Positions 220-24,421 of a stretch of DNA of 30,000 nucleotides are shown in pieces. The notes beneath the pieces were generated by a model. The model was not told the origin of the DNA. It saw only the letters and a list, made by a program, of their open reading frames with translations, and ran no database searches. Source of the stretch: Cochliopodium minus (lineage: Eukaryota; Discosea; Himatismenida; Cochliopodiidae). Within the stretch, counting starts at the first letter, position 1. Every line of letters begins with the position of its first letter. Where the stretch lies: the NCBI GenBank assembly GCA_024220525.1, contig JAMYWO010000398.1:1-30000 (forward strand), read 5' to 3'. The position numbers and the translations under genes are program-made.

Positions 220-3200
220 TTAAATTCCATCAACATTGTTGAGTTTCTTGTAGTTCCTTTTGAGGCGAGCAACAAGGGCAAAAACAACAATAATAATAAG
301 AATAAAGACAGCACCAGCAATGGCAATTCCAACGATAGCACCAGTTGACAAAGGAGAAGATTTGGTTTCCTTGGAACCGGAAAGGGTGTATAAATCAACA
401 CCCACACCAGGAGTAGTGACAGTTGAAGAATCTCTAGGAGAAGAAACAAAAGAACGAGAAAGAACAGTTCCATTAGAGAAAGAGAGGGAATAAATACCAT
501 GAACATAGTATTGTTGATAGGTTTGAACAGAAAGAGGAGTTGCATCAAAAGTTACACCACCATAAATGTTGGGGGAGATTCTGGTATTGAAAAGAGAGGC
601 GAGAGCATAGTTGGTATTTACTCTTCCTCCAGAAACCAAGGTAATCCTAAAATCGTTAGTAACTCTTGGATCCAAACAACCATAATTGTTGTCAGTAGTT
701 TGGGAAGAAGTTAAAACACTGGCATTGTTCGGAAGATAACAGACATAAAGAGTGGTAACAGTTATGTTGAATTGAGATCTTTCATTAGCATCAAGAAAAG
801 GGAAAACATAAATGGAATCACCTGTATCAAACAAGTTTTCTGAAGGGAGTTGCGCGAGAGCAGATTCTTCTGAATCATAAAATTGAAGGGAAAGAGGGAT
901 GGTGATAGCTTTCTGAACAGTGTCAAAGATGACATAGTTGATATTGAGTTGAGAATTGATAGAGTTTCCAGTAGGATTGTAGTTTTGATAAAGAGACCAA
1001 ATCAAAGAGAATTGGTCATTAAAGTTTATATCTCTTTTAGAGGAGGTAGTGGTGCTGGTGAATTCCCATATTTGTTCACAAGGAGCACTGGTGAGACAGG
1101 TACAGGTTCCTCCAGATGTTTCGGGAGTGAGATTAGAAGTACAGAAAGGAGATTGAACTTGAAAGACAGGGTAAGTTCTTTGTAATTGAAAAGATCCTCC
1201 AATGGAAACAGGAGTGACATCTCCAAAATATTGTCCCAACAAGTTTACTGTGGTTGAAATTCTAACAAATAATCTGTTGTCTGCTGTTTGTCCAATGTAA
1301 AGAATAGTGACTTGCGCACCTGTTTGAACAGTGAGAGAAGAAACCAAGTTGAGAGTGGAATCCAAAGTAAATTGAAAAGGAATGATGTATTCTGACAACA
1401 CTCTCACTTTGTATCCACTTGTAGAGGTAGAGGTGAGTGGTGCCACCAATGAAGCATGAAGGTTCCCTACTACACTTATTGTTGTTGCGTTTGCACTTGA
1501 TGATGCTCCACATTTAAATAAATTAAAGAATCCCATAGAACTGTTATATATCAATTTATTCTCCACTATATTTGTTCCATTGTACACATTAAACAACTTC
1601 CAGTAATTTCTTTATTTAATTCAAAAATTAATTTAATTTTATTAATTAAAAAAACTTTATTTATAATAAATTCATTTTACCCTGGAGGGGGATATGCAAG
1701 ATATGTGGTAGTTCCCAAAGAAGGGTAGACACCTTTTTGGATATTTCTGACTTGAGCAGCAGATGGTGCAGATCTATAAATTTTAAAAATAAATTTTAAT
1801 TAAAAAATATAATAATATTGAAAAATAACTAAAAATTATTAAAATAAAATTAAATAAAAATTAAATAAAAATTAAATAAAAATTAAAGAAAAATTAAAGA
1901 AAAATTAAATAAAATTGTTACAAATTAAAATTAATAAATGAAGATAATTACCTCCAAACAGAAGAGTTGGTGGCAGAAGTACCAAAAAAGTCAGAGTATT
2001 TTCTGTTGACACAAGAATTATTTTTAGGAGACAAACCAAGAGTAGGATCAAAAGATTGAAAGTCAATGATCCAAGTAGCACCTCTCACATAATCCAAAGT
2101 GAGAGAAAAAGTAAAGTTTTGAGAAGAGAGATCAAAATCAATGTTGTAAGAAGGAAGAGTGGAATAAGGTCTAGGATTCAATGTTTGGGTTGCAATGTTA
2201 ATGATTTCAGAGGGTTGACAGAAAGCATAATCCCATGTGATGCAATCTGTTTGATTTTCTCCTGGTCCTTGATTTATTTGTCCTGGATGACATGTTTGAG
2301 TTGTTTGACAAAATCCACAAAGAAGGTATGAATCTAATAAGATAAAAAAAAAATATTAAAAAATTTTAAAAAATAAAATCAATTTAATAAATTAATATTA
2401 AATGAAATCTATTTAATAAAATAATTTAAAATCAATATAATAAAATATAGTAAGTTGAAAAGGTAAAGGTAAATAAAAATGATTGAAAGTGACAATAAAT
2501 TCTTACCACTCAAACAAGAAGCACAGTCAACGTGGTTGTGGCAAACATAATCAACAAAAACTTTAAAGTACAAGTTGAGGGGAACAAAGGAAGAACTTTT
2601 GGAAATGGCCACAGAAACGTTTCCATCAAAATAACCTCCACTACTCAAATTCCAAGCACCAGGATAAGAAGGATTGGCGATGGCAGGGATATTGATGTAA
2701 TAAGAGATGGATGCTGTTTGTCCTGCTGCTACTGTTCCCAAATCTTCTGAACTCAAAGGTAGTACTGTCACCAAACTTATTGTTGGTGAAAACAAGTGTG
2801 AAAGAACCACATCTATTGCATCTGATGGTCCATAATTTGTTATCTTTAAAAATAATTAAATTAATTTTTTAAGGATAAAATAAAATAAATAAAATTAAAT
2901 TGTAAAAATAACATTAATTTAAAAATTTGTTTGTCAAAACTTTTATTTTTTTGTGTTACCTTTAGAACAATAGGAGGAGTATCAAGTTGAGCAGGAACCA
3001 TAGTAGTAGGATAGGAATCAACAAAAGAAGCACTAATGTTGTATTGAACAGTAGAATTGACGGTATCAACATAAAGACAATTGTTACTTTGATCTATGTC
3101 ATCTTCAAGTCCATACAAACAGACTTGAAAATCTTATAAAAAAAGATTAAAAAAAAAAAAGAAGAAAAATAGAAAATAGGGAAAGAAACCTAAAGGAGTT

Positions 3201-6200
3201 CCTTCGGCAACACTTGAAGCAACAAAAAAGGTCATTGTAATATTGATGGTTCCATTCACAGCGAGTTCTGATTGAGAAGGAATACAAACCAAAACACCAT
3301 TGTTTCCTGTACATGAGGTGATCTGAATACAAAAACAAATTAAAGAATAAGAGAAAAATGATTTTTAAAAAGTTTACACCGGTAGAAGAAACATAAGAAA
3401 CAGCATCATTGGATTGTTGATTGTAGTTTAATTGAAAAATCAAAACGAGACCACTTGCAGTAGAAGGACCAGAATTTTGAAAGGTAAGAACAGGAATGGT
3501 CCAAGTGGTACCAGCAACGGGTTGTTGATACAAATGTACATTTTCTCTTTGGTGCAAATAAGACAAAAGATCAAGAATGAGATAAATATCTATTTCTCTG
3601 TCTGATACTCTCACGTCTGTTGCCACATTGTTTGCAGGGTTGAGATCTTCCTCTAAACTGGTAATGCTCCAAGTAGTATTAATTTTGAAATTGGAATCAA
3701 GAGAAGAAGAAACGAGGAGATCAATTTCCAATGTGTCCAAATAACCATCTGCATAACTAAATCTTCCAAAATCACATGTCAAATTCTTTAGGTCTCCATT
3801 GTTGAAGAAACAGTAGAGGTTGGAAGAGGCACTGGAGAAATTCAAGTAAGAAGGAAGGATAATGTTGATGGATGCATTTCTTGCGTCACTAGGTCCGTAA
3901 TTGTATACATTGAACAAATAACTGGTGGTTGTTCCTGGTACTGGTGTCATTGTATTTGTTTGAAGTGATAAATTTAAATCTGCCAATGTTTTTGATGTTG
4001 TGTTTGCTAAATTAAAAAAAAAAGTATTAAAAATAAAAGGAAAATAAGAATGTATATTTAAAATAAGAAAATATTAAAAAAGAAATAAGAAATATTTACC
4101 AACAAAATCGTTGTTGAAAGGTTTGGAATCAGTAGCATTTCCGGGATTAGGTAAACCCAAGTCAGCAGTTTGAAGATTAGAAAAGATGGAAAATTTGGTT
4201 TGAAGGATGGTAGCAAAAGGAACATTCGGATTTACAGTCAAAGAAGTAACTATGGTTCCACGAACATATGCAGCAGAAGTAATGGAAAGAGCATCCACTT
4301 GTTCATCACGAATTTGACAAGTAGAAATACCATTACTGTCCAAACAAAGTTCCACATTTGGTCCTGCTTGGAATTGAGAAGAATTAAAAATGATATTGAT
4401 CACCACTGAGGAGACATCGGAGGGTCCTGCATTGTAATAAGTGACATTGAAATTTACTGGTGTTCCTGCAATGGTTGGATCAGAATAATCTATGACAGAA
4501 ATTTGTAAATCATAAGAACTCGTCACATTTGCAGAAGTGGAGTTAACATTGTTTGAAATATCTATTTCCAAATCACTTGAATAAATGTTTGCAATCACCA
4601 AAGGAGTAGCAACAATAGACCAATTAGTAGGAACAAACAAATTCATGGAGGCAGTGAAAACGTTATTGACATTATTGAAAGGATCATAAAGGGGCAAGGA
4701 AGCATTCTTGATACATCTGATGGTGGTGAGACCTGTTCTGGTACAAGAAGGAAAACCAACAATGGAAGTAGGAGACTGGATGTCTTGAGGAACTTGTAAA
4801 TCAAGAATGATATCAGTAGAATCAGAAGGACCCAAGTTTATTGCTTCCAAATATATTGTCAAATTTGAACCTGCAGAAATGCTTGGTTGACAAGTAAAAC
4901 TGGTTATCACAAAATCTACGAGGTGAGTAATGTTTGATTTCAATGAAAGAGATGCTTTTGTGGGGTCTAAAATATCTTCATTGGCAGTAACATTTAAGTT
5001 TGTGATTTGAGAATAAACTCCCACGGGAACTTGATTGGTGACATTGGTAACGATCACAAAAGATTGGGAATTTCTTACTTGAAAGAGAGAAAGTCTCATG
5101 TCTGGTTTCACTACACATCTCACTGTCTCCAATGTTGATTGAAAATCTTCTCTATCAAAACAAACCAAATTTGTACTTGTAGAGTTTATAATCAGATTCT
5201 TTCCTTTGTTGAATACTATTTAAAAAAAAAAAGAAAAATTAGAGAATTCTAAAAACAAACATATGTTTTAAATGATGTAGATTTTTTAAAAAAAAAAATT
5301 GAGAAAAATATTATACAGATGGTGACGTTGGTAGCATCAGAAGGACCAACATTGGTAAGAGTAAAAAGATATTCAAGATATTCCCCAGAATTGGCAGAAG
5401 TGGTGTAACGAGTAACATCTAAAGAAAGATCGACTTGGGTAGATAATTGGATGGGAAAGGATTCAGTTTTAGTAGGAACGTCATTACCAAAATAGGAAAA
5501 GTAGATAAAAGGAGAAGAAATAGGCAAAGAAGAAGAAGGATAAATGGTAATTTGACCAGAACCAGTGTTAGGTGGAGCATTAGGTGCAGTGCTAGGTGCA
5601 GGAATAGATTGAGGGAAAGAACAATAAATGATACTGGATGTCTGGTTGGAAGAAAGACAAACAAAATCACCAACACTTGAAATAAAAGTAAAACCAGAAG
5701 GTAAATTTATATTAAATTTCGCTCCTGTTGCTTGAGAAGGTCCCCAATTTGTGAGAGCTACTTCAAACTGGTAATTCTCTCCTGTATAACTTTCCAAATT
5801 GTTCCCCCCGTTTACACTCAATGAAAGGTTTGTAGATGCCACGGTAACAAATGACTCTACAAATGAATTGTCATCACTATTGTCATCCCTATTTTCCATT
5901 TTAAAAAAACAATAAACATAAATAATGAAGGAAATCATTTTTACACGAAAAGATCGGTTGTTAAATCAACACCACTTGAAATAAAAAGTCTTTTGAAAGA
6001 ACCGGCACTGGTATCAGCCTGATATTTTAAAGTAAAAGTAAAACGAAAAAAATTTGAAATAAAAGAAAAAATTTTACAGGGACACTGATAAAAAAGGAAA
6101 ATGACTTTGTTTCATTGACAGTGACATTACCAGGAGAACATTTCCAGATGGATAAGACACTATTGGCATTGATACTTTCACAATAAGAATCATTACTGTT

Positions 6201-9200
6201 CAAAGTGGCTAATCCTTCAAATTGTAAAATAATGTAGACACCATTACCAGAGTAATTTATGTCATTGGGTCCATTGTTGGTAACACTAAAAGAGACAGGG
6301 TAAGAATCTCCTGAAGTCATAGTTTTTACAGCTCTATTGAATTTAGTCGAATAAAGTGATGTTTCTTCAGATCTTTTTGATGAAGTAATTGAAAGTTTTA
6401 TGTCTCCATGAACAGATGTTGGGCATTTCTAAGAATAAAAAAATTAACAAATTGAATTAGGGAAAAATAAAATTTACCAAAGAAATAGGACAAGAAACAG
6501 ACAAAGTATTGAAAGGATAGTAAGGATAGGTAACAGAATTACAAGCATTAGGATTAGTAGTACCTGCTTTCATTGCAACGTCTCTTTTATTCTTACTAGC
6601 AGAGGTGGTCGTACTCGTTGCAGTTGGATTACTTATTTGAGGTCCTTGGGATGGACAAGTACTTGCACCAATTGTTATGTTAAAAATCCCTTTCGGATAT
6701 GTAGTAGTGGTTGAAATGGAACATAAGATAGAATTATAATTTAAACTACTACAACAATATCCTTGTCCGTTATTTATGCTAACAAATTACAATGAAAAAA
6801 TTGACAAAAAAATAAATTAAAAGAAATTACAGGTATTTATCTCGAGAAGGATTTGAAGAAGGAGGACAAGTAGAAGCAAAACAACCAAACACATTTGTTG
6901 GGTATGCAGAATTTCTAATACAACAATAAGAATTACATTGTCGATTAGAGGAAGTAGTATCTAGAACTGAAAAACCAGAGGCAACCGGACATACAGCTCT
7001 ATCAGAAAAATGATGTAATTCCTCTTCTCTTTTTTTATTGGGAGCACCATTGTCAGTGGGGAAAAAAGTAAAACTAGTGATGTCAAAAGGTTCATCCAAT
7101 CCCAAAGGATAATCAATTACAGAATTACCATTAGTTAGAGTTCTCCAAGTGTCACTTCTTGCCTTAAACTCTGCATTGGGAGTGTAGACTTCTGTTACAA
7201 CATGATAATAGGTTACAAGACGACAAGTTCCATTAGGTTGATTTTGGGTGATGGAGAGATCATTGCAACGAGTCTCTTGACAAAGTTCTGTTCCTTGGGT
7301 ACAATTCCAATAAGAGAAAGAAACGTCTTGACCTGTATTGGGATTTGTAAAAGTAGCAGTTTGACAATTGGTTAATTGATAAGTAGAATTGGAAGTAGAA
7401 GAAACACAAGAAACATTGACCACATTACATTCGGTGATGGCGGTTTGGGTACAACTTTCCCAAGTTCTGGCATAAGAAGTGAGAGAAAGTTTATAATTTT
7501 CATTGGTGGAGAGGTAACTTCCTGTATAATCCACATTTTCATTCACATAGTAAGTTGTTTCATTAATTGTTTGAGTGAGAAAACTACCACCTTGTTCGGA
7601 ACTAGTGATGTTGTAAGAATAGGTTCCATCTGTTTGGAGAAGAGGTGTTCCAAGAGTATTGGGACATCCATACTTTAAAGTATCACTGGCATAATAAGTC
7701 CAGAATAAAGCAAAGGAATTCCCACTGCCACTTGCTTTACTGTACAACACATGACATTCATTATCATTCCTAAGAAAGACAGTGTTAGAAAGAGAGTCCC
7801 TCTTTTTTGTTGGAGATGATACAGGATTAAAGTTAAATTGAAAAGAAACAGAAAATTCACTGCTAGGATCAGAATCCAACTGTAAGTTTGCTTGATCTTG
7901 ATAAACAGGACATATTTGGGCTCCTATTCCAAATAATTCTTTTCCTCCTCCCCCTGTAGTTCCTTTTATTTGAGTCAAATCAACACAACAAGAAAAAGAA
8001 CCTCCATTCTGATTTAATGTTCCCACTAATGTCCATGTGTTCTGTTTGTCTGGGTTGAAACGCCATAATCCACCTTGTGCGAGAATTTCCGAACTTAATC
8101 CCGCTTGAAAATAAGAGCTATTAGGAAAATTAAAACAGAAAGTTGCAGAATTGAAATAGATAGAACTTAAAGTAACATATTGATAATCTGTGAATGGGAA
8201 AAAAGTATCTGGTGCATAATCTGGGAATCCTGTTGAAGATACCTTTTAAAAATTAAAAAATAAAGAACAATAATAAAAGAAATGAAAAAAGTTGGATTAC
8301 AGTGAGGATAGTTTGAAAGGACATTTGATTAAAAGTGGCATTAAAACCAGGTAAGTAAGCAGGGTTTCCAAGCGCCTCGGGGTTGAGATTTGGAGAGATT
8401 GAGAGATGAGTAACTGCTTGATCAATGGTCACATTTCTGGTGTAAACACCACCACAAAACACAGGTTCGGTGGTAACAACAGGAGTGTAGTAAATGTTCA
8501 TAAGGGAGGAATCCCCACATTGAGAACATCCATATCCAGAATAACCCGTAAAACAAGTACAATTATTTGGATTTCCGTTTGTACAGTTACCAAAAAAAGG
8601 ATAGATGACAGTAGTCCCCACTATTTCTCCATTAGATGGTGCTCTAGAGAGAACATTGTTGATTCTACTCAATTCTTGCAAAAGAACAGAACGAGCTGCT
8701 TTGTATTCTGTCAATCTTTGATTGTACAGGGTGAGTTCGTTGATGCTTCCAGTTAATTGATTGAATAAGCTGATGAGCTTATCATTTTGAATGGCTGCGG
8801 TCAAATCATTAGTTTGAATTCCAAGATCAATGATGAGCTTCGCTTGTGTATAAATTTGTAGAGCATCAGCAGTATCACCAATTTGTCCATCAAGCAAAGT
8901 AATATTCCCATTAAACCAATTTTCTGAATCAATTAGGTTTTGTTTCAGAACATCAATATCAACACCCACAAGAGTCTTATTATTGGTATCATAGATGTAT
9001 TGTTGTTGTGTATCATTCAATTCATAAATAGTTTTATTAATCTTATCCACAAGATTATCGATTGTCAAATTGAGCTGTTGCATTTTTGTCAATACTGCCG
9101 ATTTTTTGAGACTTTGTAAGAGAAATTGTTGATTCAATTGATTAATTGAATTGGTGATTGTTGCTATCAATTTTTGTAATGAGGACTATTAAAAAAAAAA

Positions 9201-10466
9201 GTATTTAAAATATATCAAAAAAAAATCAATTAATTTTACAATATTATTCTGGGTAACTGTAGTATTGGATCTTGTGTCTTCAAGTTGGGTGTTCAATTGA
9301 GCCAATGTTCTATTAAAAAATTAAAATTATAATTTAAAAATTGATTGAAAAAAACTTACGAATCACAATTAGCATTGACATCATTGATGGAAGCAACAAT
9401 AGATTGCAAGGTAGCATTATATTGAGCAATTAAATAATTATCACTATCAATCGAAGTTTGTGCAGCAATTTTTTGAGGACAAGAACCTGTTGCTGGGCAA
9501 GTAGCACTTGCTTGATTATAAACTGTTGTATCATAATTCAATTTAACTTGAGCACTACTTAAATCAAAGTTTGCTGCCAATTTTTGGGTTATAAGATTAT
9601 TCAAGCTAAAAATTAAATTAATTAAATCAGATTAGATCTTTTTTTGGTATCTTATTTTTAAAAATTGTTAACCTCATCAAACAATATTGAGAACTAGATT
9701 TGATATTATTATAATTTGAACTCATTGATGATAATAATGTATCCAATGAAGAGGTCATAATTTGCGTTGCAGAGAGTCTATCATTCAGATAAGTCTTATT
9801 TCCATTGATATATCCTTGAATTTGTGCCAATAATGCATTTAAATTTGTTAGAGTGATATTTTGATTGGTCCATTCAATAATGGAATTTTGCAAACTAGTT
9901 TGTTGAGAATCTAAAACTTGGATTAGCGATGCATTTTTCAAAATGTCTTGATTTATTTTATTTTGATAATACTGATACAAGGCAGTCTTGGTTGTTATCT
10001 TTGAGTTGATGTTTGATTGTTCCGTAAGGCTTGTAGTATAAAGATTCTTCAAATCAGAAACCCTATATAAGAAAATAATAAATTTGATAGAAATAAAAAT
10101 AAATAAGGATTACAATCTATTAAATGTATTTTCAGTGGCAGTAATATTTTCAGTATTTTCCAATTTTTGTTGTTCATAATTATCTTGAAGAAGGGTCAAA
10201 TTTTCAATAAGCACCAATTGAGAACAAATAGATGATTCCAATCTATTCATTCCATTTTGAACCAGAGATGCCATTCTGATTAAAAAAAGTTTGAGAATGA
10301 AATGAACAATAAAAATTTAAAATAAATACTTTTGATAAACTCCTTCTATACTGAAATTTATATCAACCAAATTATTGTATGTTTGAGTTTGTTCATTTTG
10401 CACAACAGATATATTTTGGCCAAGAGAAAAAATTGTAAAAAACACTATTATGATGAAAGCTCTCAT
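220..10466 (-). CDS. Giant type I membrane protein: coiled coil, EGF-like patch, eight DUF11-like repeats, C-terminal TM helix
   Basis: One spliced gene of about 19 exons and roughly 2950 residues. Exon joins kept an open frame at every GT..AG pair I checked, for example 10328/10276, 9673/9605, 8303/8244, 4099/4006 and 2506/2331. The start at 10466 begins a hydrophobic signal peptide (MRAFIIIVFFTIFSLG). Residues about 20-520 are Gln/Asn/Leu-rich and look coiled-coil. A Cys cluster near 535-560 (CTCFTGYSGYGCSQCG) is EGF-like. Residues about 600-1200 are Cys-rich and unfamiliar. From about 1240 to 2330 there are eight copies of a NxGPSDA-type motif followed by a beta-strand/LP pattern, as in DUF11/CARDB-like or integrin-alpha-like beta sandwiches. 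An unrecognised domain of about 400 residues follows. One TM helix (IVGIAIAGAVFILIIIVV) leads to a 15-residue basic tail. N-glycosylation sequons are very frequent. A role in adhesion or as a cell-surface receptor is inferred from architecture only; I know no named homologue. Confidence 0.8.
1847..1912. repeat. AT minisatellite, about 11-bp unit, in an intron
   Basis: About six head-to-tail units close to ATTAAATAAAA (some with AAAGAAAAATT) lie within the intron between 1773 and 1951 of the giant membrane-protein gene. This makes the intron about 180 bp, longer than most introns of the gene. Confidence 0.75.
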
Positions 10467-10634
10467 TGTTTTTTTTTTATTTTTCAAATTTTATATTTTT
10501 GATTTCGAATTTAATAACCCTCTTTACTGAGGATTTTGAGTTCAATTATTCTTAAATTAACTTTTAATTTGGATCGAAAAAAATTATTTGAAATATTTAT
10601 AAATTAATTTTAGTCATTCATCTATTTTAAAACA

Positions 10635-11622
10635 TTATTTTTTGGTATCTTTCTTTGTTGTTTCTTCCTTTTTGGATAATTTAGATTTTCTTCTTGAAGA
10701 GATTTGACGTCTTCTTTGAATTTCTTCATTTCTTCTTTGTTTGATCAATTGATTGTATGCTTCAACTTCTTTTTTTGCACTCTCTCTTCCTTTCAACTTT
10801 TCAGCTTTATGTCTTCTCTTTTGAGCAAGTTTTCTTGGAGTGACAAGTCTTTGGATTTTTGGTGCTTTGCTTCTTGGTTTTTTTCTTTTGCTTCCTTCTT
10901 TGATTGGAATTTCTCTTCTAATAACAAATTCTTTTACATTATCCTTCTTGGTCAAACTGAACAATTTTCTGATTTTGGATGCTCTTTTTGGACCCAATCT
11001 ATTTGGGACTGCTTTTTCAACTTCTGTCAAATCTGGGATTTCTTGTTCTCCTTTTCTCAAAATGATAAGATTTACAACAACAATTTCACTGCTGATGATG
11101 CAACCACGAAGAGATTTACGTTTACGAGTACCATCTCTCTTTTGTCCACGGTATCTATTGTAACAAGTGGTTCCTTCAGTGAGAAACAATCTGATACGAT
11201 CACTTGTCAAAACACCTTGTTTCATTGGAAATCCTTCCTTATCACTTCCACCAGTAATTTTGAATACATATCCTTTATATTCATCTCCAAGGAGACTTCC
11301 ATCAATTTCTTCTGCTAATTTTTTATCTTGAAAGAGACGGCTATATTTTTGTTTATATAAATGAATAAATTAAAAATTTAGAATAGAGTAAATCCGAAAA
11401 TAAAATTAATTTTAGTGAGAAGAAATTGAGAACAAAGTATCCTTAAATATGTTCTTTATATTTTAAATTGGGGCTCTCATTACTATTTAATGTATTTATC
11501 ATATTCAAATATCTCTTTCATTTAATTTTATTTTGAGGAATAGTTTTTTACACTTTCTTTTCATCTTCAAGTTCAATGACTTTTTGGCGACCAGTTGATG
11601 GGAAGGCAATATTGAGCTTCAT
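10635..11622 (-). CDS. RPS6: 40S ribosomal protein S6 (eS6), copy 1
   Basis: Structural component of the 40S subunit. Two exons: 11622-11552 and 11340-10635, with a 211-bp intron (GTAAAA..ATATAG). The product is about 258 residues; the family is usually 230-250. The N-terminus reads MKLNIAFPSTGRQKVIEL, and family hallmarks follow: GFPMKQGVL, RKRKSLRGCI, RLGPKRASKIRKLF and APKIQRLVTPR. The C-terminal tail keeps the basic RRRQISSRRKS stretch, equivalent to the S6-kinase target region of other S6 proteins, so phospho-regulation is possible. The gene lies 168 bp upstream of the giant membrane gene on the same strand and is divergent from P2X. An identical second copy lies at 18322-19309. Confidence 0.97.
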
Positions 11623-11750
11623 CCTTAATTTTTTTTTATAATTTATAATTATTATTTTTAATATTTATATTTTTAAATAATTTTAATAAAAAATCTTATT
11701 CAAATGGTAATTAGTAGAATCGATTTATAAAAAAATAAAAGAAAAAAAAA
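11623..11750. promoter_or_regulatory. Shared divergent promoter, RPS6 / P2X
   Basis: Only 128 bp separate the two start codons, and both genes read outward. The interval is almost pure A/T and includes poly-T and poly-A tracts, with an A-run directly before the P2X ATG. The same interval is duplicated exactly at 19310-19437. No specific factor site could be identified. Confidence 0.6.
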
Positions 11751-13953
11751 ATGAAAGAGAAATTTATTTCACTTTTCAATTATAGAACAGTTAAATTGAT
11801 TGAAATCAAAAGTTGGAAATTAGGATTATTATATTATGTAATTTTTCATTTTTTATATTTTCACATCAACAAAGAATCATTCATTTTATTACTAACAAAT
11901 TTTCATAAGTTCATCTCTTTATGTATTGTTGCTTATGTAATTGGATTTGTTATAATTTACCATAAACAATATCAAACAGTCAGTTTACCAGGTAATTAAT
12001 TTATCAATCTATTCCACCATCATAATTCAATTATCATTGTTACTCAAAAGTTGGGATATCAAATTTAAAGGTAGGAATTTGTCAATATAATTATTTAATT
12101 ATAATCTTAGATTCAAGCCAAAAGGAAATGGATATTTTTTTCGGCCAAATACTACCATGGTTGTATGGGATGGTAAAGAATTAATTTCTTATTTTTAAAT
12201 ATTCTCATTTAAAAAAGAATATGATATCTGTCCGATTGTCGAAAATAATGGGCTCTTTATCACAACAACTATGCATCCAACATATCATCAGCAAAGAACT
12301 ATTTATTCAAGCACATCAGTTAGAATTAAATTTTTTTTTTTTTTTGAAATTAATTCATCAATTTTTAAAAGTTAAAATGTGATCCACAAGAGAAGTGCCC
12401 AATATATAAAGAGACAGAGAATGGAAGAACTAACGGTGTTTGTGACGAGACAACTAATTGTAACCAAATTTTTTTTTAAAATCAAAATTAATAATCTAAC
12501 ACCTCTCCAACACCTATACCAATCAAACACCAATACCAATCAATTATAAATGAAATTATTTCGGAAAAATAGATTGTCAAGTTTCTGGTTGGTAAATTTT
12601 TTTTTTTAGTTTTATACAATTTGTTTCATTTTTGATGTGAAAAAAGGTATCCTCTTGAAAACCCATACAGTGAGAATTACACAATTACAGGATCTCAGAA
12701 TGTCTCCATTTTCATTAAAAACAATGTAATTTTCAAAAAAAAAAAAAACAATAATTTTTGATTGTTTCATTTTTATTTTAAAATTCATTTTTGACATAAT
12801 CACTTGTAATAAATGAATCAGGTAAAATTTTCAGAATTAAACATAAACATGGACAACTTAGGGGGAATGACACCTATACAATATGACTATTTAAATCCGA
12901 ATAATAAAAGTAATTCTCTTGCAAGGTTTGAATTCAACAGTTGTTCATTTAATATTTAATATTTCTTTTTATACTTATATTTATTTTAATATTTAATATT
13001 TCTTTTTATATTTATATTTATTTTTATATTTATTTATTTTAATATTTAATATTTCTTTTTATATTTAATTTAAACTAAATTTATTTTTCATTTAAAAAGT
13101 ATTTGGAGAATGGAAGATATAATAAATTTAAGTGGAAGTAAATATGAAGACATCACTGATTTAGGTTTAATAATCAAAAATATAAAATTTCTCATATAAA
13201 ATTTCTATTTTCCTGAAAATGTAAAAGGAGCTGCAATCGTAGCCTCTTTTACTTGGAACTGTGATTTTGATTTTTCAAAAATTTGCCATCCAAATGTTTC
13301 TTTTTTGAGAGTGGATAACCCCAATTCTGATTCAAAAGGTTCTTTAAAACAATAGTTTTTATTTTTATTATTTTTATTATTTTATTATTTTTTTATTATT
13401 ATTATTTTTATTATTTTTATTATTTTTATTATTTTTATTATTTTTATTATTTTTATTATTTTTATTATTTTTATTTCTTTCATACTTTAAATTGTAAATA
13501 GGATTCAACTTTAGAATAGGAAGACAGTATTACTCTCAAGAAAATACTTCCCAAATTCTTACTAGAGATCTCATCAAATATTTGGGAGTAAAAATATTTG
13601 TTGTTACTGCTGGTTCTGTAAATATGTTCTTGAATTTATTATAAGAATAAAATTTCTTATTTAATTATTTTATGGCAGGGTGGAAAATTTACATCTCCTG
13701 TTCCCTTTTTTCAAGGTTTTTTTTTTAAAAAGATTTCACCATTTTATTGTTATTTTTTCTTAGCCCTAGGAGCAGGATTATCTCTTTTGGCTGCTTCAAC
13801 TGTCATAGCAGAGTAATTATTTGATAATAAATTATATAAATTTAACTTTTTTTTAAAATTAGTATGTTATTAATCTATATCCTTCCCAAGAGATATTACT
13901 ATAAAGAAAACAAAATCAATGAAATAGATGACATCTCTGAAATGGATTATTAA
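11751..13953 (+). CDS. P2X-family ATP-gated cation channel
   Basis: Spliced product of about 368 residues, close to family length (about 380). The order matches P2X: cytosolic N-terminus (NYRTVKLIEIKSWKLGLL), TM1 with CIVAYVIGFVIIYHKQYQ, and an extracellular loop with VVWDEYDICP, ENGRTNGVC, CQVSGWYPLENP and NVSIFIKNNVKF. The ATP-site motif NFR follows (GFNFRIGRQYY), then TM2 (ALGAGLSLLAASTVIADMLL). The tail YKENK fits the conserved YxxxK surface-retention motif. The WCPxE element of many P2X proteins is WYPLE here. There are about 14 short introns. One (11838-11909) is 72 nt and free of stops, and removing it restores TM1 homology. One exon (12051-12070) is 20 nt. Introns at 12926-13099 and 13342-13500 carry AT repeats. 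In other amoebae such channels sit on the contractile vacuole; that location is not shown here. The early exon joins around 11990-12110 are the least certain. Confidence 0.9.
12935..13075. repeat. AT-rich tandem repeat in P2X intron
   Basis: About three imperfect units of some 50 bp are built on TTTAATATTTAATATTTC followed by a TTTATA-rich stretch. They lie within the intron that joins the exon ending near 12924 to the exon starting at 13100. No coding potential. Confidence 0.7.
13357..13478. repeat. AT minisatellite, 9-bp unit, in P2X intron
   Basis: A long run of TTTTTATTA units (period 9, with a few shorter variants at the left end) fills most of the intron between 13342 and 13500. It is similar in style, though not in sequence, to the 9-bp array at the window start. 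Confidence 0.85.
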
Positions 13954-16895: not shown

Positions 16896-17150
16896 ACACA
16901 ATCCGGTATCTCCACACCCACATCCCTTCTTAATTTATTTTTATTTTATTTAAATTCAATTATAAAAATTTTACCCTGATCCTTTGAGCTCCAACAGTAT
17001 TTTGTGAATGTCCTTCTGTTATTTGAGTATTTGAAATATTTTCGATAATGACTCCATCACTCGGGTGTTTCTTGTTTTTACATGCATGGAACTGCAACTT
17101 CATACTGTTGTGCCACATTTTTGCCCTGATCCGAAACAAGGACACTCTTT
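16896..17150 (-). repeat. Tandem diverged repeat, unit B (CXC-like remnant)
   Basis: This unit matches 17201-17452 at about 300-bp spacing with scattered substitutions and small indels. Both units contain the same minus-strand pieces: a Cys cluster (CPCFGSGQKCGTT here), then SCSSMHVKTRN, VIIENISNTQITEGHSQNT and an AGGGTAAAA donor-like site. A short intron-like AT stretch follows, and then GCGCGDTGLC. The duplication therefore contained an exon plus an intron. Confidence 0.8.
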
Positions 17151-17200
17151 TAATAGTTAATTTTATTTTATTGTAAAAAAAAAATTCTTACTTTTAGTTT

Positions 17201-17452
17201 CACATTTAGTTTTACACTCACATCCCTTTTTAATTTATTTTTATTTTATTGAAATTCAATTGTTAATATTTTACCCTGATACTTTGAGTTCCAACAGTAG
17301 TTTGTGAATGTTCTTCTGTTATTTGAGTATTTGAAATATTTTCGATAATGACTCCATCACTCGGTGTGTTTCTTGCTTTTACATGCATGGAACTGCAACT
17401 TCATACTGTTGTACCACATTTTTGCCCTGTTACAGAACAAGTACATTCTTTT
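17201..17452 (-). repeat. Tandem diverged repeat, unit A (CXC-like remnant)
   Basis: Partner of 16896-17150. The minus strand reads CTCSVTGQKCGTT, then SCSSMHVKARNTPSDG, VIIENISNTQITEEHSQTT and GCECKTKCETK at the lower end. The in-frame stop after GTTV occurs in both units, so it predates the duplication or the model of that join is wrong. Confidence 0.8.
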
Positions 17453-18320: not shown

Positions 18321-19507
18321 ATTATTTTTTGGTATCTTTCTTTGTTGTTTCTTCCTTTTTGGATAATTTAGATTTTCTTCTTGAAGAGATTTGACGTCTT
18401 CTTTGAATTTCTTCATTTCTTCTTTGTTTGATCAATTGATTGTATGCTTCAACTTCTTTTTTTGCACTCTCTCTTCCTTTCAACTTTTCAGCTTTATGTC
18501 TTCTCTTTTGAGCAAGTTTTCTTGGAGTGACAAGTCTTTGGATTTTTGGTGCTTTGCTTCTTGGTTTTTTTCTTTTGCTTCCTTCTTTGATTGGAATTTC
18601 TCTTCTAATAACAAATTCTTTTACATTATCCTTCTTGGTCAAACTGAACAATTTTCTGATTTTGGATGCTCTTTTTGGACCCAATCTATTTGGGACTGCT
18701 TTTTCAACTTCTGTCAAATCTGGGATTTCTTGTTCTCCTTTTCTCAAAATGATAAGATTTACAACAACAATTTCACTGCTGATGATGCAACCACGAAGAG
18801 ATTTACGTTTACGAGTACCATCTCTCTTTTGTCCACGGTATCTATTGTAACAAGTGGTTCCTTCAGTGAGAAACAATCTGATACGATCACTTGTCAAAAC
18901 ACCTTGTTTCATTGGAAATCCTTCCTTATCACTTCCACCAGTAATTTTGAATACATATCCTTTATATTCATCTCCAAGGAGACTTCCATCAATTTCTTCT
19001 GCTAATTTTTTATCTTGAAAGAGACGGCTATATTTTTGTTTATATAAATGAATAAATTAAAAATTTAGAATAGAGTAAATCCGAAAATAAAATTAATTTT
19101 AGTGAGAAGAAATTGAGAACAAAGTATCCTTAAATATGTTCTTTATATTTTAAATTGGGGCTCTCATTACTATTTAATGTATTTATCATATTCAAATATC
19201 TCTTTCATTTAATTTTATTTTGAGGAATAGTTTTTTACACTTTCTTTTCATCTTCAAGTTCAATGACTTTTTGGCGACCAGTTGATGGGAAGGCAATATT
19301 GAGCTTCATCCTTAATTTTTTTTTATAATTTATAATTATTATTTTTAATATTTATATTTTTAAATAATTTTAATAAAAAATCTTATTCAAATGGTAATTA
19401 GTAGAATCGATTTATAAAAAAATAAAAGAAAAAAAAAATGAAAGAGAAATTTATTTCACTTTTCAATTATAGAACAGTTAAATTGATTGAAATCAAAAGT
19501 TGGAAAT
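18321..19507. repeat. Segmental duplication, copy 2
   Basis: Direct-orientation copy of 10634-11820. It holds a whole RPS6 gene with intron, the divergent promoter, and 70 bp of P2X exon 1. The junctions are sharp: just outside the RPS6 stop codon on the left, and after TTGGAAAT on the right, where copy 1 continues TAGGATT and copy 2 continues AATGATA. No flanking target-site duplication or terminal repeat was seen, so a transposon mechanism is not supported. Retroposition is excluded because the intron and promoter are present. Confidence 0.95.
18322..19309 (-). CDS. RPS6: 40S ribosomal protein S6 (eS6), copy 2
   Basis: Exons 19309-19239 and 19027-18322, with the same 211-bp intron. The predicted protein is identical to copy 1 over all 258 residues, including MKQGVLTSDRIRLFL and the basic C-terminal tail. 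The full 128-bp promoter was copied too, so the gene is probably expressed and raises RPS6 dosage. Only the sequence beyond the stop codon differs (AATTTAAATTAACATT on the minus strand), so the two mRNAs should have different 3' ends. Identity in non-coding positions points to a recent event or ongoing gene conversion. An assembly duplicate is possible but less likely, because both flanks are unique. Confidence 0.95.
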
Positions 19508-19509
19508 AA
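19438..19509 (+). pseudogene. Truncated 5' stub of the P2X gene
   Basis: The first 23 codons of P2X (MKEKFISLFNYRTVKLIEIK, then SWK) run into a TAA supplied by the junction sequence. The stub keeps the P2X start context and its side of the shared promoter, but stops before TM1. It cannot form a channel. It is convergent with the 3' end of the P5A-ATPase gene, 56 bp away. Confidence 0.9.
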
Positions 19510-19565
19510 TGATATTGTCAAAAGAAATGAAATAAGAAGTTAAATATTTAATGATATTATCTGAT

Positions 19566-22500
19566 TTATCCAGTCCATTTGAATAATTTTTTGGAAATGA
19601 ACTCCCATAAATAGGATAAAGTAAAATCCAAAAACAATACAATAACGAGTTTTCCTCTCAAATTTGGATTCAAAGGGGCCAATTCAAACATAGAATCCAT
19701 AGGTAAAATACCCAAAGCAACCAATACAGTCATGACACCCGAAGAAGTCAAAAAGTAAAAAAGGGGTTTATTTTCGCGAAGAGATTGCATCCAAGGATGG
19801 CCTTTTATAAAATCGAATAATTAATTTGAATTAAGTTTGACAGAATTCTGTTACCTTGATAATTTGTGATAAAAGTGGAAATTTGCATTACATTAGTCAA
19901 TAAAAACAAAGAAGTATTCAATACATTTGGCTTAAACACCTCTTCCACTGGTAATTTGACATTATCAAACATTTTAGCATGTTTAACAACAAAGATCATG
20001 GAGAGAAGATGAATAGTAAATTGACCAAAACTTAAACAAAATAATTAAATTTTTTAAAAAATTTAAGATTTGAAAAAGGAATTTACAGAGAAAAGAACAT
20101 GTAAGGATTGAAGAGAGAAGATGGAGGCTTTTCTTTGGAGAGATGGGGAAGTGGTTTAGCACGAGAAATAAATAAAAAGCTCAACGCAATGAAAATCCCA
20201 TTGACAGTCATTTGTCTTTATAAATTGTTTAAAATAAAATCAAAAATTTTGAAAAAATATTTCTTTTTTACGTATCACCAAATTTTACTCCATCAAGAAA
20301 TAGGACTGATAGACTGTAGGCGGTAACCAAACATTGCAAAGCAAGAATTTTGAACATCTGAGTAGTGGTGACCAACGTGCATCTTCCTTGTCTTACCAAA
20401 TCTATGATTGGTTGGATGTGATTTGTTTTTGTGGTGAAAGGAGCAGCAAAAGAAGCACCTTTTAAATTAAATAAAATAAATGAATTAAATAAATTAAAAT
20501 TAAATTTAAAATACCCATTTGGATCAAAGGTACTTCTTCATCTGAAGCAAAACTATTTTTGAAATCATTGATTTTCTTTGCTAATAGTTCAGTTGGGTTT
20601 TTTTTGACTTTTTTGGAAGGTTTGGTAGTGGATCTCTTTTTGACAGAGGGAGTAGAAGTAGATGAAACGTGTATGATCGCTTCTGGATGCACGTTGGTCT
20701 CTTCGTTTATTATGAGATCTTCATCAGGGTTATTGAGAAGTGCAACTCCCACATGTGACTGCTTTAATGCTCCCACATCTAAAAAAAGAAAATCAAAATA
20801 AATTTTATGTAAAATAAAGATTATAAAATTATAATTTAAAAATTTAACTAAAAGTTTTTTGAAGGAAAAATAAAGTACCATTGGTTCCATCACCACACAT
20901 CAGACAAAAATCGCCATTTTCTTTCAAAGTGGAAAGAACTATTTCTTTGTGTAAAGGTGAACAACGAGCAAAAACACGAATGTGGGAAACGTAAAGAGGA
21001 AGCAATTTGTTGATGTACAAGTACTGTAAACCCTCCCCTGTAACACACAACCCATAATCTTCACACAATTTCTTTATTTTATCCTTTTCTTTGGAGTCGT
21101 AGCAGTTTTGTTTTGTGCTTCCTCCCAAATCTTCCCATTTCCATGTGTCATTATTCTTTTTTTTTTAATCATAACGAAAAATTAATGTAAAAGAATCAAT
21201 AATTAACGTAAAATCCAATCTTTCTTTAAATGTTAATAATTTTCATTTTTATATTTTATTTTACCTCAAAAGAATTTGGCTTCAATAGGAGGACGTTCTT
21301 GAAAGGGAGGATCTCTAGTTGTTTGGCGACTTGAATGGCAGTCAATTCATTGTCACCAGTGATCATCACGTTCTTGTGGGAAGAAGAGGAAAGTTCCTGA
21401 AGTGTAGGAAGAGAGGATTTCTTAATGGGACAACTAAATATCAAAAAACCAGCAAATATCAAATCTTTTTCTGCTTCTTCTCTGCTCAAATCTTTTTTTT
21501 ATAAAATTATTAAGCAACAGTTTTTATAATTTTAATTTTTTCGAATTTTTTTTTGAATTTTTTAAATTTTAAATTTTTTTACCCTTGAGTTCATTCAAGC
21601 TCTTGAAGGTGATGGTTTTGTAAGCAAGAGAAATGACACGGTAACCTTTCATACTCCAAGATTCATAAGTGGTCTTGTAGTTGCTGGGTCTCTTTTCTGC
21701 ATCCAAGTGGTTGAAAATCGTTTCTGCTGCTCCCTTTGTCAATACGTATGCTTCATTCTCTGGTGACGTCGATACTCTTTTTAAAAATAAATTAAATAAT
21801 TAAAACTTTTTGAATTATGATAAAACAAAGTTTTCATATTTTATAAATTATTAAAAATGATTAAAAAATCAACGTTTCAAAATAAAAAAGGTGACAATAA
21901 AACTGGAATTGTATTTTCAAAAGAAAAAAAAAAATAATCAAAAGAAATTCTGAAAAAAAATCAAAAAAAAAAAAGAAATAAAAGAAACAATAATAGAAAT
22001 AATGTTAGAAACAATAAAAAAAGTATAAACTTTGCAATAGTGGTCATTCTCTTCAGGAAAGAAGTGAAATGAAATCTCTTGGCCATAGTGATGGAAATTT
22101 TGCGAGACTTGTTGGAACTAAACTCACCATTGGTGGACCAATTAGTAGACTCCAAAGAAGTGACTTCAAGGGGATCTCCCTGCAACTTTGAATCGAAAGT
22201 AATCAAATTATGGCAACCTCCTATCACGTATTGTGCCTCCTTGCTTTTCTCTATGATGTTCAAGTTGCTTACAATCTCTTTGGGAGCGTTGGGGAGGATG
22301 AGTCCTTCCAGTATCAGCTGGTCTGAGGTCAAGGTTCCTGTTTTGTCGAAACAACAGCTCGTTATTTTCCCTGCGAATGGAATGCGGAATGGTTCTATAT
22401 TTTTATAATAATGATTCAAAATAGAATTTATAAATTTTTTTATATTCAAACTCACATCAAAAATAATGATCAAATGATAAATTGAAATTTTTTTTCGAGA

Positions 22501-24421
22501 ATAAAACCAATCATCTCATTCAAATTTAATCAAAGATATTTTTCATTAAATAATTAATTTTGCATATATTTATTATTTAATCTCATGCTTTTGGAAGAGA
22601 AAGTTTGAAGTTATAAAGCCATATAAAATGTTAATAGGAGAAATTTTGATATAATTTTTTCAAATTTTTTTTTTTACCAGTACAAAAGACACTTAACTTT
22701 TGCAACTCAATGAGAGAATTTTGAACAGCGAGGGAAAGCTGAATGGGCAATTCAGGAGGGACAACAGAAGTGATGATCATGACACAATTTAAAAAGAGTT
22801 TGTATCTGCTTCTTGTTAAATCCTTCAAACCCTCTACCAACACGTAAAACGATGCCAAAATTGCGAAAAGAAGCAAAAAGAGGATGAATAACAAACTTTC
22901 TTTCGAGTTGGCAGTCATTTGCTTTGAATTGTAAAACACCATTTTCATCAACTTTCCTTGTGATGAGTTGAACCCTGTTTTCACTACGTATCCCAGTATA
23001 GATTGGTTGCTTGTTCCTTTAACCTCTTTTTTTTTTTTTTTTGAAAATAAAATTAATTTCTCTCAGACCAAGGATTTAATTAATGAAAAAATTTTATTAT
23101 TCTTAAAAATACAATTTTATAATAAAAAAAAAATAAACCTTGGTTAGAACCAGTAATAGCCTTGTTGGTTCCCTCCTCACAAACAGATTGAATAAACTTG
23201 GTTCCACTAAAAATGATGGAGAGTCTATCCTTCTTCCTGTCGAAAACATCATCAGGGTTGCGAGTACGAAGAGACTCCTTTCTTTGAGGTGTGCTTTCTC
23301 CTGTCAAAATGGATTCATTGATGACACAATTACCAGAGAGTAGGATCATATCACAAGGGGAGATGGTGTCTCTTTTTTTCTCGTTTTTTTTTCTTTTCAT
23401 TTTCATTTCGCAGATATCTCCCACCACCATGTCTGATCTGCTTATCTTTTGCCATTGTCCATTTCTGTACACCCTGTACTTGCTGGAGGAGGAAGGAAGC
23501 ATCTCTCTGAGCTTTTTGATGTTGGTGATTCTCTTTTTTACGAGGGTGGATTCGAAGATGATCAACATCACAAAGGTCAACAAGCTGTAATACCAATATT
23601 CATCCTGTTGAAAGATAAAAATTGAATTAAAAATGTTGATGAACTGGATTTTTGAATGATCTTCTTACCAACATCCATAATAAAACACAGAAGATTTGAA
23701 AAATGAATAAAGGGGCTAATGCTTGTTCAATAAAGAGTTCTTTAAATGTTGGCTCTGGAATATCAGTGTTGTTAGTTCCCCATTTATTCTTGCTTTGTTC
23801 AAAGGTGATTATTTTGTCCGTGATTTCTTTATTTTTTGATTTCAAATATTCTTCTGTGACGATCCCTGTTGCATTTTGATAGAATTTGATTTGTTCACTC
23901 AAAAGAAACTCTGTCTTCTTGAATATTTGAGCTTCATTGTCAAAATAAAATTTTCTTCTTTGGAATTCAAAGATGTATTTGTCATTCTATTCAATAGAGG
24001 TTAGAAAACAAATAAACAAGAATAATTTATGATAATTACTTGTTTAAAAATATTGGTGATAGTTGGATCTCCTTTATATTGATGTGGAATGACAAATACA
24101 TGGCTAGCATATTCTATTTTGGATGCCTGAGTGTTAATTTTTTTTTTAAAGAAAATGAGTAATAATTTTGCTGATTAATAAAGTGAATACATTTGAATAA
24201 ATCATGAAAGAATCAATGTAGGCACTCCAATATCTCCCAAGGAATGTCAAAATATGGAAAAATAAAGGAATGATTAGGGTAAGAAAATAATATGAATTCT
24301 CCATTTGAGAAGCATAGTAAGAGAGGCCCAAATAAATCAAGATAAATGGAAAAATGTCCAATCTCAAAGTTCTCTTATTTTTCAAAACAATTTTCTCAAC
24401 CAGTTTTGATTTTTCAATCAT
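19566..24421 (-). CDS. P5A-type P-ATPase (Spf1 / ATP13A1 family)
   Basis: ER membrane ATPase; P5A enzymes remove mislocalised transmembrane segments (dislocase activity). The spliced gene has about a dozen introns and encodes roughly 1080 residues, as usual for the family. The start at 24421 ([17 protein letters not shown]) follows a 14-A tract and matches the family N-terminus; an upstream in-frame ATG at 24478 is less likely. Landmarks in order: TGES actuator motif (23306-23295); PPELP in M4 (22759-22745), diagnostic for P5A; phosphorylation motif [11 protein letters not shown] (catalytic Asp at 22347-22345); [18 protein letters not shown]; and GDGTND split by an intron at about 20878. A charged linker ([20 protein letters not shown]) follows, then C-terminal TM helices ending at FKWTG. 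A Lys/Arg-rich insert ([13 protein letters not shown]) lies in the actuator domain. The intron between about 22676 and 22396 is long (about 280 bp). Confidence 0.93.

Follow-up and report, generated by a model that had tools for sequence, protein, structure and literature searches.

DUF11 domains, renamed CLIPPER in 2025 and often isopeptide-bonded in the stalks of prokaryotic fibrillar adhesins (PMC12617251, in the sections concerned), are described in parts of both PMC12617251 and PMC9210967 as an adhesin stalk. A row of NxGPS-type repeats in the eukaryote Cochliopodium minus raises the question of what such repeats are, and what kind of protein they would serve, in a eukaryotic gene. The window in which they lie is a stretch of 30,000 nucleotides (positions 1 to 30,000 of contig JAMYWO010000398.1), with 20-36% GC in 1-kb bins; Anaeramoeba ignava, by comparison, is reported at 80.65% AT (PMC11550330), and Anaeramoeba was set aside as a source. 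The 44.65 Mb assembly contains no exact match to a universal 18S 3'-end pattern.

Gene model and protein layout

The gene model runs on the minus strand from an ATG at 10466 to a stop at 222-220, joining 19 exons across 18 GT-AG introns into a coding frame that is open through 8,784 nt and encodes 2,927 aa (Table 1). The introns measure 49-178 nt (median 57.5 nt) and average 86% AT. Because the model was built for an open frame and admitted only GT-AG introns, neither property is independent evidence for it. The join at intron 14 (3189-3133) is weak, with the donor GTTTCT, and at the last intron a second acceptor also keeps the frame open (exon 19 from 1609, not 1540), which gives 2,950 aa. 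The first-pass annotation had placed a protein of about 2950 residues on this strand and between these ends; the model bears out its coordinates, strand and anatomy, and its length equals the product of the acceptor at 1609 rather than the 2,927 aa obtained with 1540.

Table 1. Features of the predicted DUF11 gene and the encoded protein, in window coordinates
Feature	Position	Strand	Basis
Whole gene	220..10466	-	gene model, intron statistics, alternative acceptor
Signal peptide, aa 1-16	10419..10466	-	N-terminal hydrophobic stretch (KD peak 2.13, aa 4); cleavage point inferred
Helical, partly coiled-coil-like region, aa ~20-515	8646..10409	-	helix-band periodicity, strongest aa 20-215; last ~85 residues unsupported
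EGF-type Cys patch, aa 536-558	8517..8585	-	pattern match at aa 544
Cys-rich region without family match, aa ~560-1200; dibasic KKRD, KKRE, NKRD sites	6481..8513	-	
DUF11 repeat 1, weak (motif 6261-6278)	5846..6371	-	7.3 bits, bacterial-only profile
DUF11 repeat 2 (motif 5732-5749)	5435..5845	-	24.2 bits, bacterial-only profile
DUF11 repeat 3 (motif 5336-5353)	4926..5434	-	21.4 bits, bacterial-only profile
DUF11 repeat 4 (motif 4821-4838)	4518..4925	-	10.8 bits, bacterial-only profile
DUF11 repeat 5 (motif 4416-4433)	4002..4517	-	22.4 bits, bacterial-only profile
DUF11 repeat 6, best match (motif 3885-3902)	3597..4001	-	49.1 bits, bacterial-only profile; 47 bits, Pfam DUF11, repeat alone
DUF11 repeat 7 (motif 3459-3476)	3053..3596	-	21.3 bits, bacterial-only profile
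DUF11 repeat 8, weak, Cys-free (motif 2820-2837)	2550..3052	-	6.7 bits, bacterial-only profile
PSI-like Cys motif, aa ~2318-2370, split by intron 16	2212..2543	-	sub-cut-off Pfam PSI match and Cys pattern
C-terminal extracellular region without family match, aa ~2371-2885	349..2211	-	
Transmembrane helix, aa ~2889-2911	271..339	-	KD peak 3.36 at aa 2893
Basic cytoplasmic tail, 16 residues, ARLKRNYKKLNNVDGI	223..270	-	without NPxY/F

The strongest hydrophobic peaks of the protein are those of the signal peptide and the transmembrane helix, which, with the short basic tail, had been read correctly in the first pass; a weaker peak (KD 1.73) at aa 2229 falls inside repeat 8. A coiled-coil stalk of about 500 residues had also been proposed, and it is partly supported: hydrophobic residues show strong periodicity in the helix band at aa 20-120 (shuffles as high, 7/300) and aa 100-215 (0/300), whereas the signal is marginal at aa 210-330 (26/300), off-period at aa 330-430 (3.86; 7/300) and absent at aa 430-520 (139/300), in a test that is not specific, because C-terminal aa 2500-2650 also reach 10/300. 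The Pfam SPAM match at aa 307-398 stays under its cut-off (24.1 against 35 bits). Long helices placed in exon 6 by AlphaFold2 have a pLDDT of 36.6 and were discarded as coiled-coil support.

The Cys pattern at aa 544, which we take to be EGF-type, agrees with the EGF-like patch noted earlier, but no Pfam family matches it at E<=1. Behind the repeats, the PSI-like stretch scores 17.7 bits in isolation against Pfam PSI (PF01437; E 0.0046; cut-off 23.1) and 11.7 bits within the long protein, with the Cys pattern present. No Pfam match at E<=1 falls in aa ~560-1200, and aa ~631-1100 have no relative in the PDB or viral contigs and no paralogue in the genome. Similarly, no Pfam family has its best stretch in aa ~2371-2885; the C-terminal region has VPS33 (E 0.5) as its sole PDB row, aa 2330-2927 have no paralogue in the genome, and the exon-19 part has no relative in viral contigs. 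The earlier remark that the N-terminal 1200 and C-terminal 400 residues match nothing recognisable survives as two large segments without detected relative or paralogue; it had overlooked the PSI-like motif. The dibasic sites are also new relative to that annotation, as are three points taken up below: the missing isopeptide triad members, a Cys pair in the repeats and one more DUF11 gene in the same genome.

The eight repeats and the isopeptide triad

Eight NxGP[SN] motifs (aa 1252, 1390, 1522, 1660, 1795, 1941, 2083 and 2220) stand against a maximum of two, and a mean of 0.06, in 500 residue shuffles of aa 1201-2320, so that the eight NxGPSDA-type repeats of the first pass are confirmed. Its DUF11-like reading is upheld by Pfam DUF11 (PF01345), which matches aa 1201-2927 with 116.7 bits (E 8.5e-34; curated cut-off 24.6 bits), six stretches passing E<=1 singly, and by a profile made from bacterial sequences only, which places all eight repeats and gives aa 1201-2320 149.5 bits against a shuffle maximum of 8.4 (500 shuffles). 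NCBIfam TIGR01451 matches three stretches (E 4e-11). Since the best single-domain score among the shuffles is 7.0 bits, repeats 1 and 8 are not secure by score alone. As judged from these profiles, the eight tandem repeats are DUF11/CLIPPER domains, two of them weak. The AlphaFold2 model of repeat 6, one repeat of the eight, is a nine-strand beta sandwich (pLDDT 84.9) that fits the Ig-like sandwich of 7-9 strands used as the DUF11 criterion, and it is not independent of DUF11, because its alignment consisted of four own and 30 bacterial DUF11 rows.

The Lys-Asp-Asn triad of isopeptide-bonded CLIPPER domains is not present in the C. minus repeats. The Asp column reads L, I, F, L, I, I, F and H in repeats 1-8 (Asp 0/8) and the Lys column V, S, V and L in the four alignable repeats (Lys 0/4), against 92% and 83%, respectively, of 372 bacterial domains, frequencies that are inflated because the consensus with which the domains were fetched itself contains Lys, Asp and Asn (and no Cys). 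That bacterial sample, fetched with a typed consensus, comprised 80 loci kept from 381 confirmed stretches; 25 of its 397 domains were removed on E-value or coverage, leaving the 372 from 79 loci. Asn occurs in one of three alignable repeats (repeat 3), and repeat 6 has an Asn one residue off the column, so that a clear loss holds for Lys and Asp only. Some DUF11 domains are without the bond according to the part of PMC12617251 that treats them, and therefore the DUF11 membership of the repeats stands. A Cys pair is kept in seven of the eight repeats and in 224 of the 372 sampled bacterial domains; in the repeat 6 model its members, at model residues 64 and 76, fall in two successive strands (E63-66 and E73-77), and repeats 1-7 are probably each pinned by a disulphide across this hairpin. 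In the second DUF11 gene, the last repeat retains a possible Lys-Glu-Asn triad, and hence a natural isopeptide bond may exist in a eukaryotic protein.

Prokaryotic DUF11/CLIPPER adhesins are likewise very long secreted surface proteins with DUF11 domains in tandem, whereas the C. minus gene has 18 predicted introns, a transmembrane anchor, EGF- and PSI-type Cys motifs, and repeats without the isopeptide Asp (8/8) and Lys (4/4 alignable). A bacterial or archaeal fibrillar adhesin is defined, in the relevant passages of PMC12617251, by stalk repeats, an adhesive domain and a sorting domain. The stalk repeats are common to both, but Pfam recognises neither an adhesive nor a sorting domain in the C. 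minus protein, which has its transmembrane anchor instead and falls outside that definition; it may work like a fibrillar adhesin, though it is not classed as one. No enzymatic domain is recognised in the protein sequence.

A putative stalked receptor

The signal peptide, the single transmembrane helix and the DUF11 domains support a type I surface protein, as the first pass had it. We give a probability of roughly 0.6 to the reading that the locus encodes, in a single eukaryotic gene, a stalked type I adhesion or recognition receptor whose CLIPPER stalk is free of isopeptide bonds and pinned by disulphides; ligand and function are derived solely from the stalk, because no adhesive domain was recognised. 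The DUF11 domains would form a semi-rigid stalk of some tens of nanometres, keeping the helical and Cys-rich N-terminal part off the membrane, where this part might bind other cells, prey bacteria or surfaces. Such a stalk would do without the Lys-Asp-Asn cross-link and would use disulphides made by the eukaryotic secretory pathway instead. The shortness of the tail and its lack of NPxY point to anchoring or partner signalling rather than direct talin coupling.

KR dipeptides number seven against 1.56 expected (0/500 shuffles have as many), while no enrichment is seen for the remaining dibasic pairs (RR 0, RK 1, KK 4). The KR sites suggest kexin/furin-type processing, which could yield disulphide-held chains. 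This enrichment, with five of the seven sites outside both repeats and tail, would also suit a protein whose N-terminal part, once cut off at dibasic sites, is shed or makes up extracellular coat, matrix or cyst material and does not act as a receptor, as would the Ser/Thr/Asn-rich composition and the short tail. We consider this alternative unlikely, given the strong C-terminal transmembrane helix and the fact that the KR motif alone argues for cleavage. Asn-X-Ser/Thr sequons number 67 against 59.0 in shuffles (sd 6.7), ~1.2 sd above.

A stalked receptor invites comparison with the dictyostelid Sib proteins, large, integrin-beta-like adhesion proteins of type I on the surface of amoeboid protists. 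Both are large type I surface proteins, and the C. minus protein differs in its DUF11 stalk and in the lack of a tail NPxY/F. The assembly yielded no integrin-beta match (controls silent).

Integrin likeness, origin and gene integrity

Integrin alpha chains join an FG-GAP beta propeller to three leg domains of the Integrin_A_Ig type, and an NxGPS-type motif occurs in integrins. The thigh and calf legs thus share with the repeats a similar beta sandwich and motif, whereas the C. minus protein has eight repeats, an N-terminal helical region in place of the propeller and no NPxY/F in its tail. With the repeat 6 model, integrin alpha chains fill rows 1-23 among the best 50 in Foldseek (TMq 0.68-0.76), many of them re-determinations of one protein, and CLIPPER 9IFR follows at rank 25 (TMq 0.56). 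A profile of the own repeats finds integrin alpha-4/-5 in three of seven weak PDB rows and not 9IFR, and four C. minus repeats added to 30 bacterial ones bring integrin alpha-4 to first place (E 1.1e-4) and integrins to 10 of 17 rows, against one of four for the control profile of the 30 bacterial repeats alone. These results speak for an ancient eukaryotic origin of the repeats, as a module resembling the integrin-alpha leg, over acquisition from bacteria, and would make the protein a leg-only cousin of integrin alpha. The protein also passes Integrin_A_Ig_3 (28.7 bits; cut-off 23.6), but so do five of eight bacterial DUF11 controls, drawn at random from 41 bacterial DUF11 frames with 4-8 domains; a further integrin control, which took four repeats without Lys and Asp (four of seven listed), pointed the same way. 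Integrin-leg likeness is also given as a property of bacterial DUF11 proteins in the portion of PMC9210967 concerned. The likeness noted in the first pass is therefore real and largely a general DUF11 property; integrin alpha as an identity was dropped on these grounds. Pfam finds no FG-GAP in the protein (one match in the assembly). We regard the integrin-leg ancestry as distinctly improbable.

For the CLIPPER reading, lateral acquisition of the repeats, raised in the first pass, is plausible on distribution alone. Mean identity among the C. minus repeats (0.19-0.24) is about the same as that to bacterial repeats (0.18-0.26). In a FastTree tree of 88 sequences (eight own, ten from the second DUF11 gene, 70 bacterial), repeats 1-7 form a group with two of the second gene's repeats (support 0.79), the remaining eight of that gene come together (0.997), repeat 8 of the main gene lies elsewhere, and the repeats of neither gene are monophyletic; the tree is too weakly supported, and we therefore make no claim on lateral transfer from it. 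Repeat 6 has no close relative in viral contigs, nor have repeats 2-6 in plasmids (E<=0.01). Together with the missing paralogues of aa 631-1100 and 2330-2927 and the other negative results in viral contigs, this would fit the lineage-specific receptor supposed in the first pass. Among the matches listed, no eukaryotic DUF11 protein was found described in the DUF11 literature. Six eukaryote papers among these matches were set aside, as their matching parts contain DUF1121, DUF1181, DUF1191, DUF1168, DUF1126 and DUF1117 instead (PMC3188802, PMC7952579, PMC3828140, PMC5014347, PMC2777172, PMC8169666).

A 2025 survey, in its section on the subject, judges its own eukaryotic isopeptide-domain matches to be likely false positives or contamination (PMC12617251). 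The C. minus gene agrees with that survey in that its repeats are without the bond Lys and Asp, and contamination does not explain it, given the 18 predicted introns and an eS6 ribosomal-protein gene on the same contig and strand across a gap of ~170 nt (10466 to 10635). Repeats 1, 3, 7 and 8, like the PSI-like motif, are split by introns, and the domains are continuous only if these joins are made; the joins outside domains are predicted from the open frame and splice signals alone. As predicted, 10466..220 is one gene, not two. That it holds two or more adjacent genes, or is a prediction artefact, is highly improbable: the model was optimised toward an open frame, and with ~170 nt to the eS6 frame, introns of 173-178 nt could conceal gene borders, but the interrupted domains need their introns spliced, and a single signal peptide stands at the start and a single strong transmembrane helix at the end.

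The locus shows DUF11 domains encoded by a gene with 18 predicted introns on a eukaryotic contig. A wider interpretation, which we offer tentatively and hold to be doubtful, is that a prokaryotic CLIPPER stalk was taken up by a eukaryotic lineage and re-engineered for the ER, with Lys and Asp giving way to hydrophobic core and the hairpin disulphide kept, and was fused with EGF- and PSI-type motifs and two regions without family match into an integrin-leg-like receptor that is not an integrin. The locus would serve as a test case for how a prokaryotic adhesin stalk is adapted to eukaryotic secretion and for how DUF11 relates to integrin-alpha legs.

Assignment of the repeats to DUF11

The repeats of the window gene are, as judged from their sequence, DUF11 domains (PF01345, now CLIPPER), and the first-pass annotation, which had claimed eight DUF11-like copies, was right at the domain level. 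The Pfam DUF11 model matches the protein with an E-value of 8.5e-34 (116.7 bits), with six stretches passing E ≤ 1 alone, and NCBIfam TIGR01451 gives 42.7 bits. As an independent test, 80 bacterial loci were fetched with a typed consensus and a profile was made from their own repeats, using 391 of the 397 domains listed. This bacterial-only profile matches all eight repeats, with 7.3, 24.2, 21.4, 10.8, 22.4, 49.1, 21.3 and 6.7 bits for repeats 1-8, and no other stretch of the protein exceeds 0 bits. Residues 1201-2320 as a whole score 149.5, against at most 8.4 across 500 residue shuffles, and the best single domain scores 50.8, against at most 7.0. Repeats 1 and 8 score near the shuffle maximum, so neither stands alone, and both are supported by their motif and their position in the array.

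Isopeptide columns and the hairpin Cys pair

The 2025 survey that renamed the family describes CLIPPER as a fibrillar-adhesin stalk; crystal structure 9IFR shows an isopeptide bond between Lys and Asn, with Asp presumed to act as catalyst. According to the same account, the bond is missing from some DUF11 domains, and 29.7% of CLIPPER domains carry disulphides alongside isopeptide bonds, at varied sites (PMC12617251). In the bacterial set (372 domains; 79 of the 80 loci represented), Lys, Asp and Asn occupy their columns in 83%, 92% and 90%, frequencies inflated by the query consensus. In the window repeats the Asp column holds L, I, F, L, I, I, F and H, with no Asp in any of the eight; the Lys column, alignable in four, reads V, S, V, L, and the Asn column, alignable in three, reads N, T, F. 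Repeat 6 also carries an Asn one residue off that column.

The hairpin following the isopeptide columns carries a Cys pair in 7/8 window repeats and in 224/372 bacterial domains; already common in bacteria, the pair is therefore not new in the window gene. A few bacterial domains likewise combine it with missing isopeptide residues (the pair is present in 15 of the 18 without Lys and without Asp/Glu). What stands out is that the pair is kept without the isopeptide residues across a whole array.

Gene structure and history of the array

Features of the window gene and its protein, and of the second DUF11 gene
Feature	Position	Details
Window gene	10466 to 220, minus strand	ATG at 10466, stop at 222-220; 19 exons, 8,784 coding nt, 2,927 aa
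Signal peptide	N-terminus	
Helix-type hydrophobic periodicity	to ~aa 515	periodicity test
EGF-type Cys pattern	aa 544	pattern match
Cys-rich region	after EGF-type pattern, to ~aa 1200	no family assignment
Eight NxGP[SN] repeats	aa 1221-2315	
PSI-like Cys motif	from aa 2318	17.7 bits with the Pfam PSI profile, under its cut-off
C-terminal region	after PSI-like motif, to ~aa 2885	no family assignment
TM helix	KD peak at aa 2893	KD 3.36
C-terminal tail	16 residues	no NPxY/F
Second DUF11 gene (L005)	3099-8618, contig C5, minus strand	uninterrupted 1,840-aa frame; DUF11 2.9e-24

The window gene has 18 introns of 49-178 nt (median 57.5; AT 86% on average). Because the gene model was fitted so as to stay open and to use GT-AG introns, both features are built in. 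An alternative in-frame acceptor of the last intron gives a product of 2,950 aa, which agrees with the length of about 2950 residues first proposed. The eukaryotic origin of the gene rests on introns that split domains and on an eS6 ribosomal-protein gene on the same contig. The eS6 region is present twice (10634-11830 and 18321-19516; 1,197 nt, 99.7% identity, 7.7 kb apart), either as a recent duplication or as an assembly artefact.

Elsewhere in the window, an ATTTT-type tandem repeat at the contig start (1-80) adjoins the 3' end of the gene, a 239-nt direct duplication lies at 16914-17452 (copies 300 nt apart, 92% identity), and P-type ATPase-like exons, judged by eye from open frames, lie at 20844-23986 on the minus strand. 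The window covers bases 1-30000 of contig C393 in an assembly of 598 contigs (44.65 Mb). Across this assembly, a universal 18S 3'-end pattern has no exact match; nuclear rDNA may be absent from it or divergent in it.

Relative to the repeat motif, introns fall at +66/+90 (repeat 1), +11 (3), +110, repeat end (5), +32/+76 (7) and -3 (8), and those inside repeats represent all three phases. These differing positions and phases indicate that the array did not arise by recent exon duplication and has probably spent some time in a eukaryotic genome. The window repeats diverge from one another about as much as from bacterial repeats. In a FastTree phylogeny, repeats 1-7 cluster with two repeats of the second DUF11 gene (support 0.79), and repeat 8 is separate. 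Lateral acquisition from prokaryotes is plausible as an argument from distribution.

A DUF11 search of the assembly gave at least four matches in at least two genes. The second, L005, encodes a hydrophobic N-terminal stretch, 112 Cys and nine repeats related to one another, and includes a 375-bp tandem array (4.0 copies, 94%). Its last DUF11 repeat (aa ~1650-1770) aligns Glu and Asn at isopeptide columns, and the Lys of DLVLRK can be placed by eye in the third, a column that the scripted alignment left open; the other ten aligned repeats have no Asp in the Asp column. This candidate Lys-Glu-Asn triad is a possible eukaryotic isopeptide bond.

Protein architecture and proposed role

The window protein contains 71 Cys, and no paralogues of aa ~631-1100 or aa 2330-2927 were found in the assembly. 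The coiled coil of about 500 residues proposed in the first-pass annotation holds in part: helix-type periodicity is strong at aa 20-215, but beyond this it is weaker or off-period, and it is absent at aa 430-520. The earlier observation as a whole was sound and its interpretation partly borne out.

From this anatomy, we expect that the protein would be secreted through the ER and anchored by its single TM helix, with the CLIPPER stalk bearing the helical and Cys-rich regions at its far end. KR dipeptides occur more often than expected (7 against 1.56; as many in 0 of 500 shuffles), which suggests kexin/furin-type proprotein-convertase processing, as occurs in some integrin alpha chains. Four of the seven precede D or E; RR, RK and KK are not enriched in the protein. 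The protein would most likely serve to adhere to, or recognise, cells, prey or surfaces, the main alternative being a shed or structural coat. The DUF11 domain and its stalk role are already known; the eukaryotic setting, the absent cross-link residues and the overall architecture together set this gene apart.
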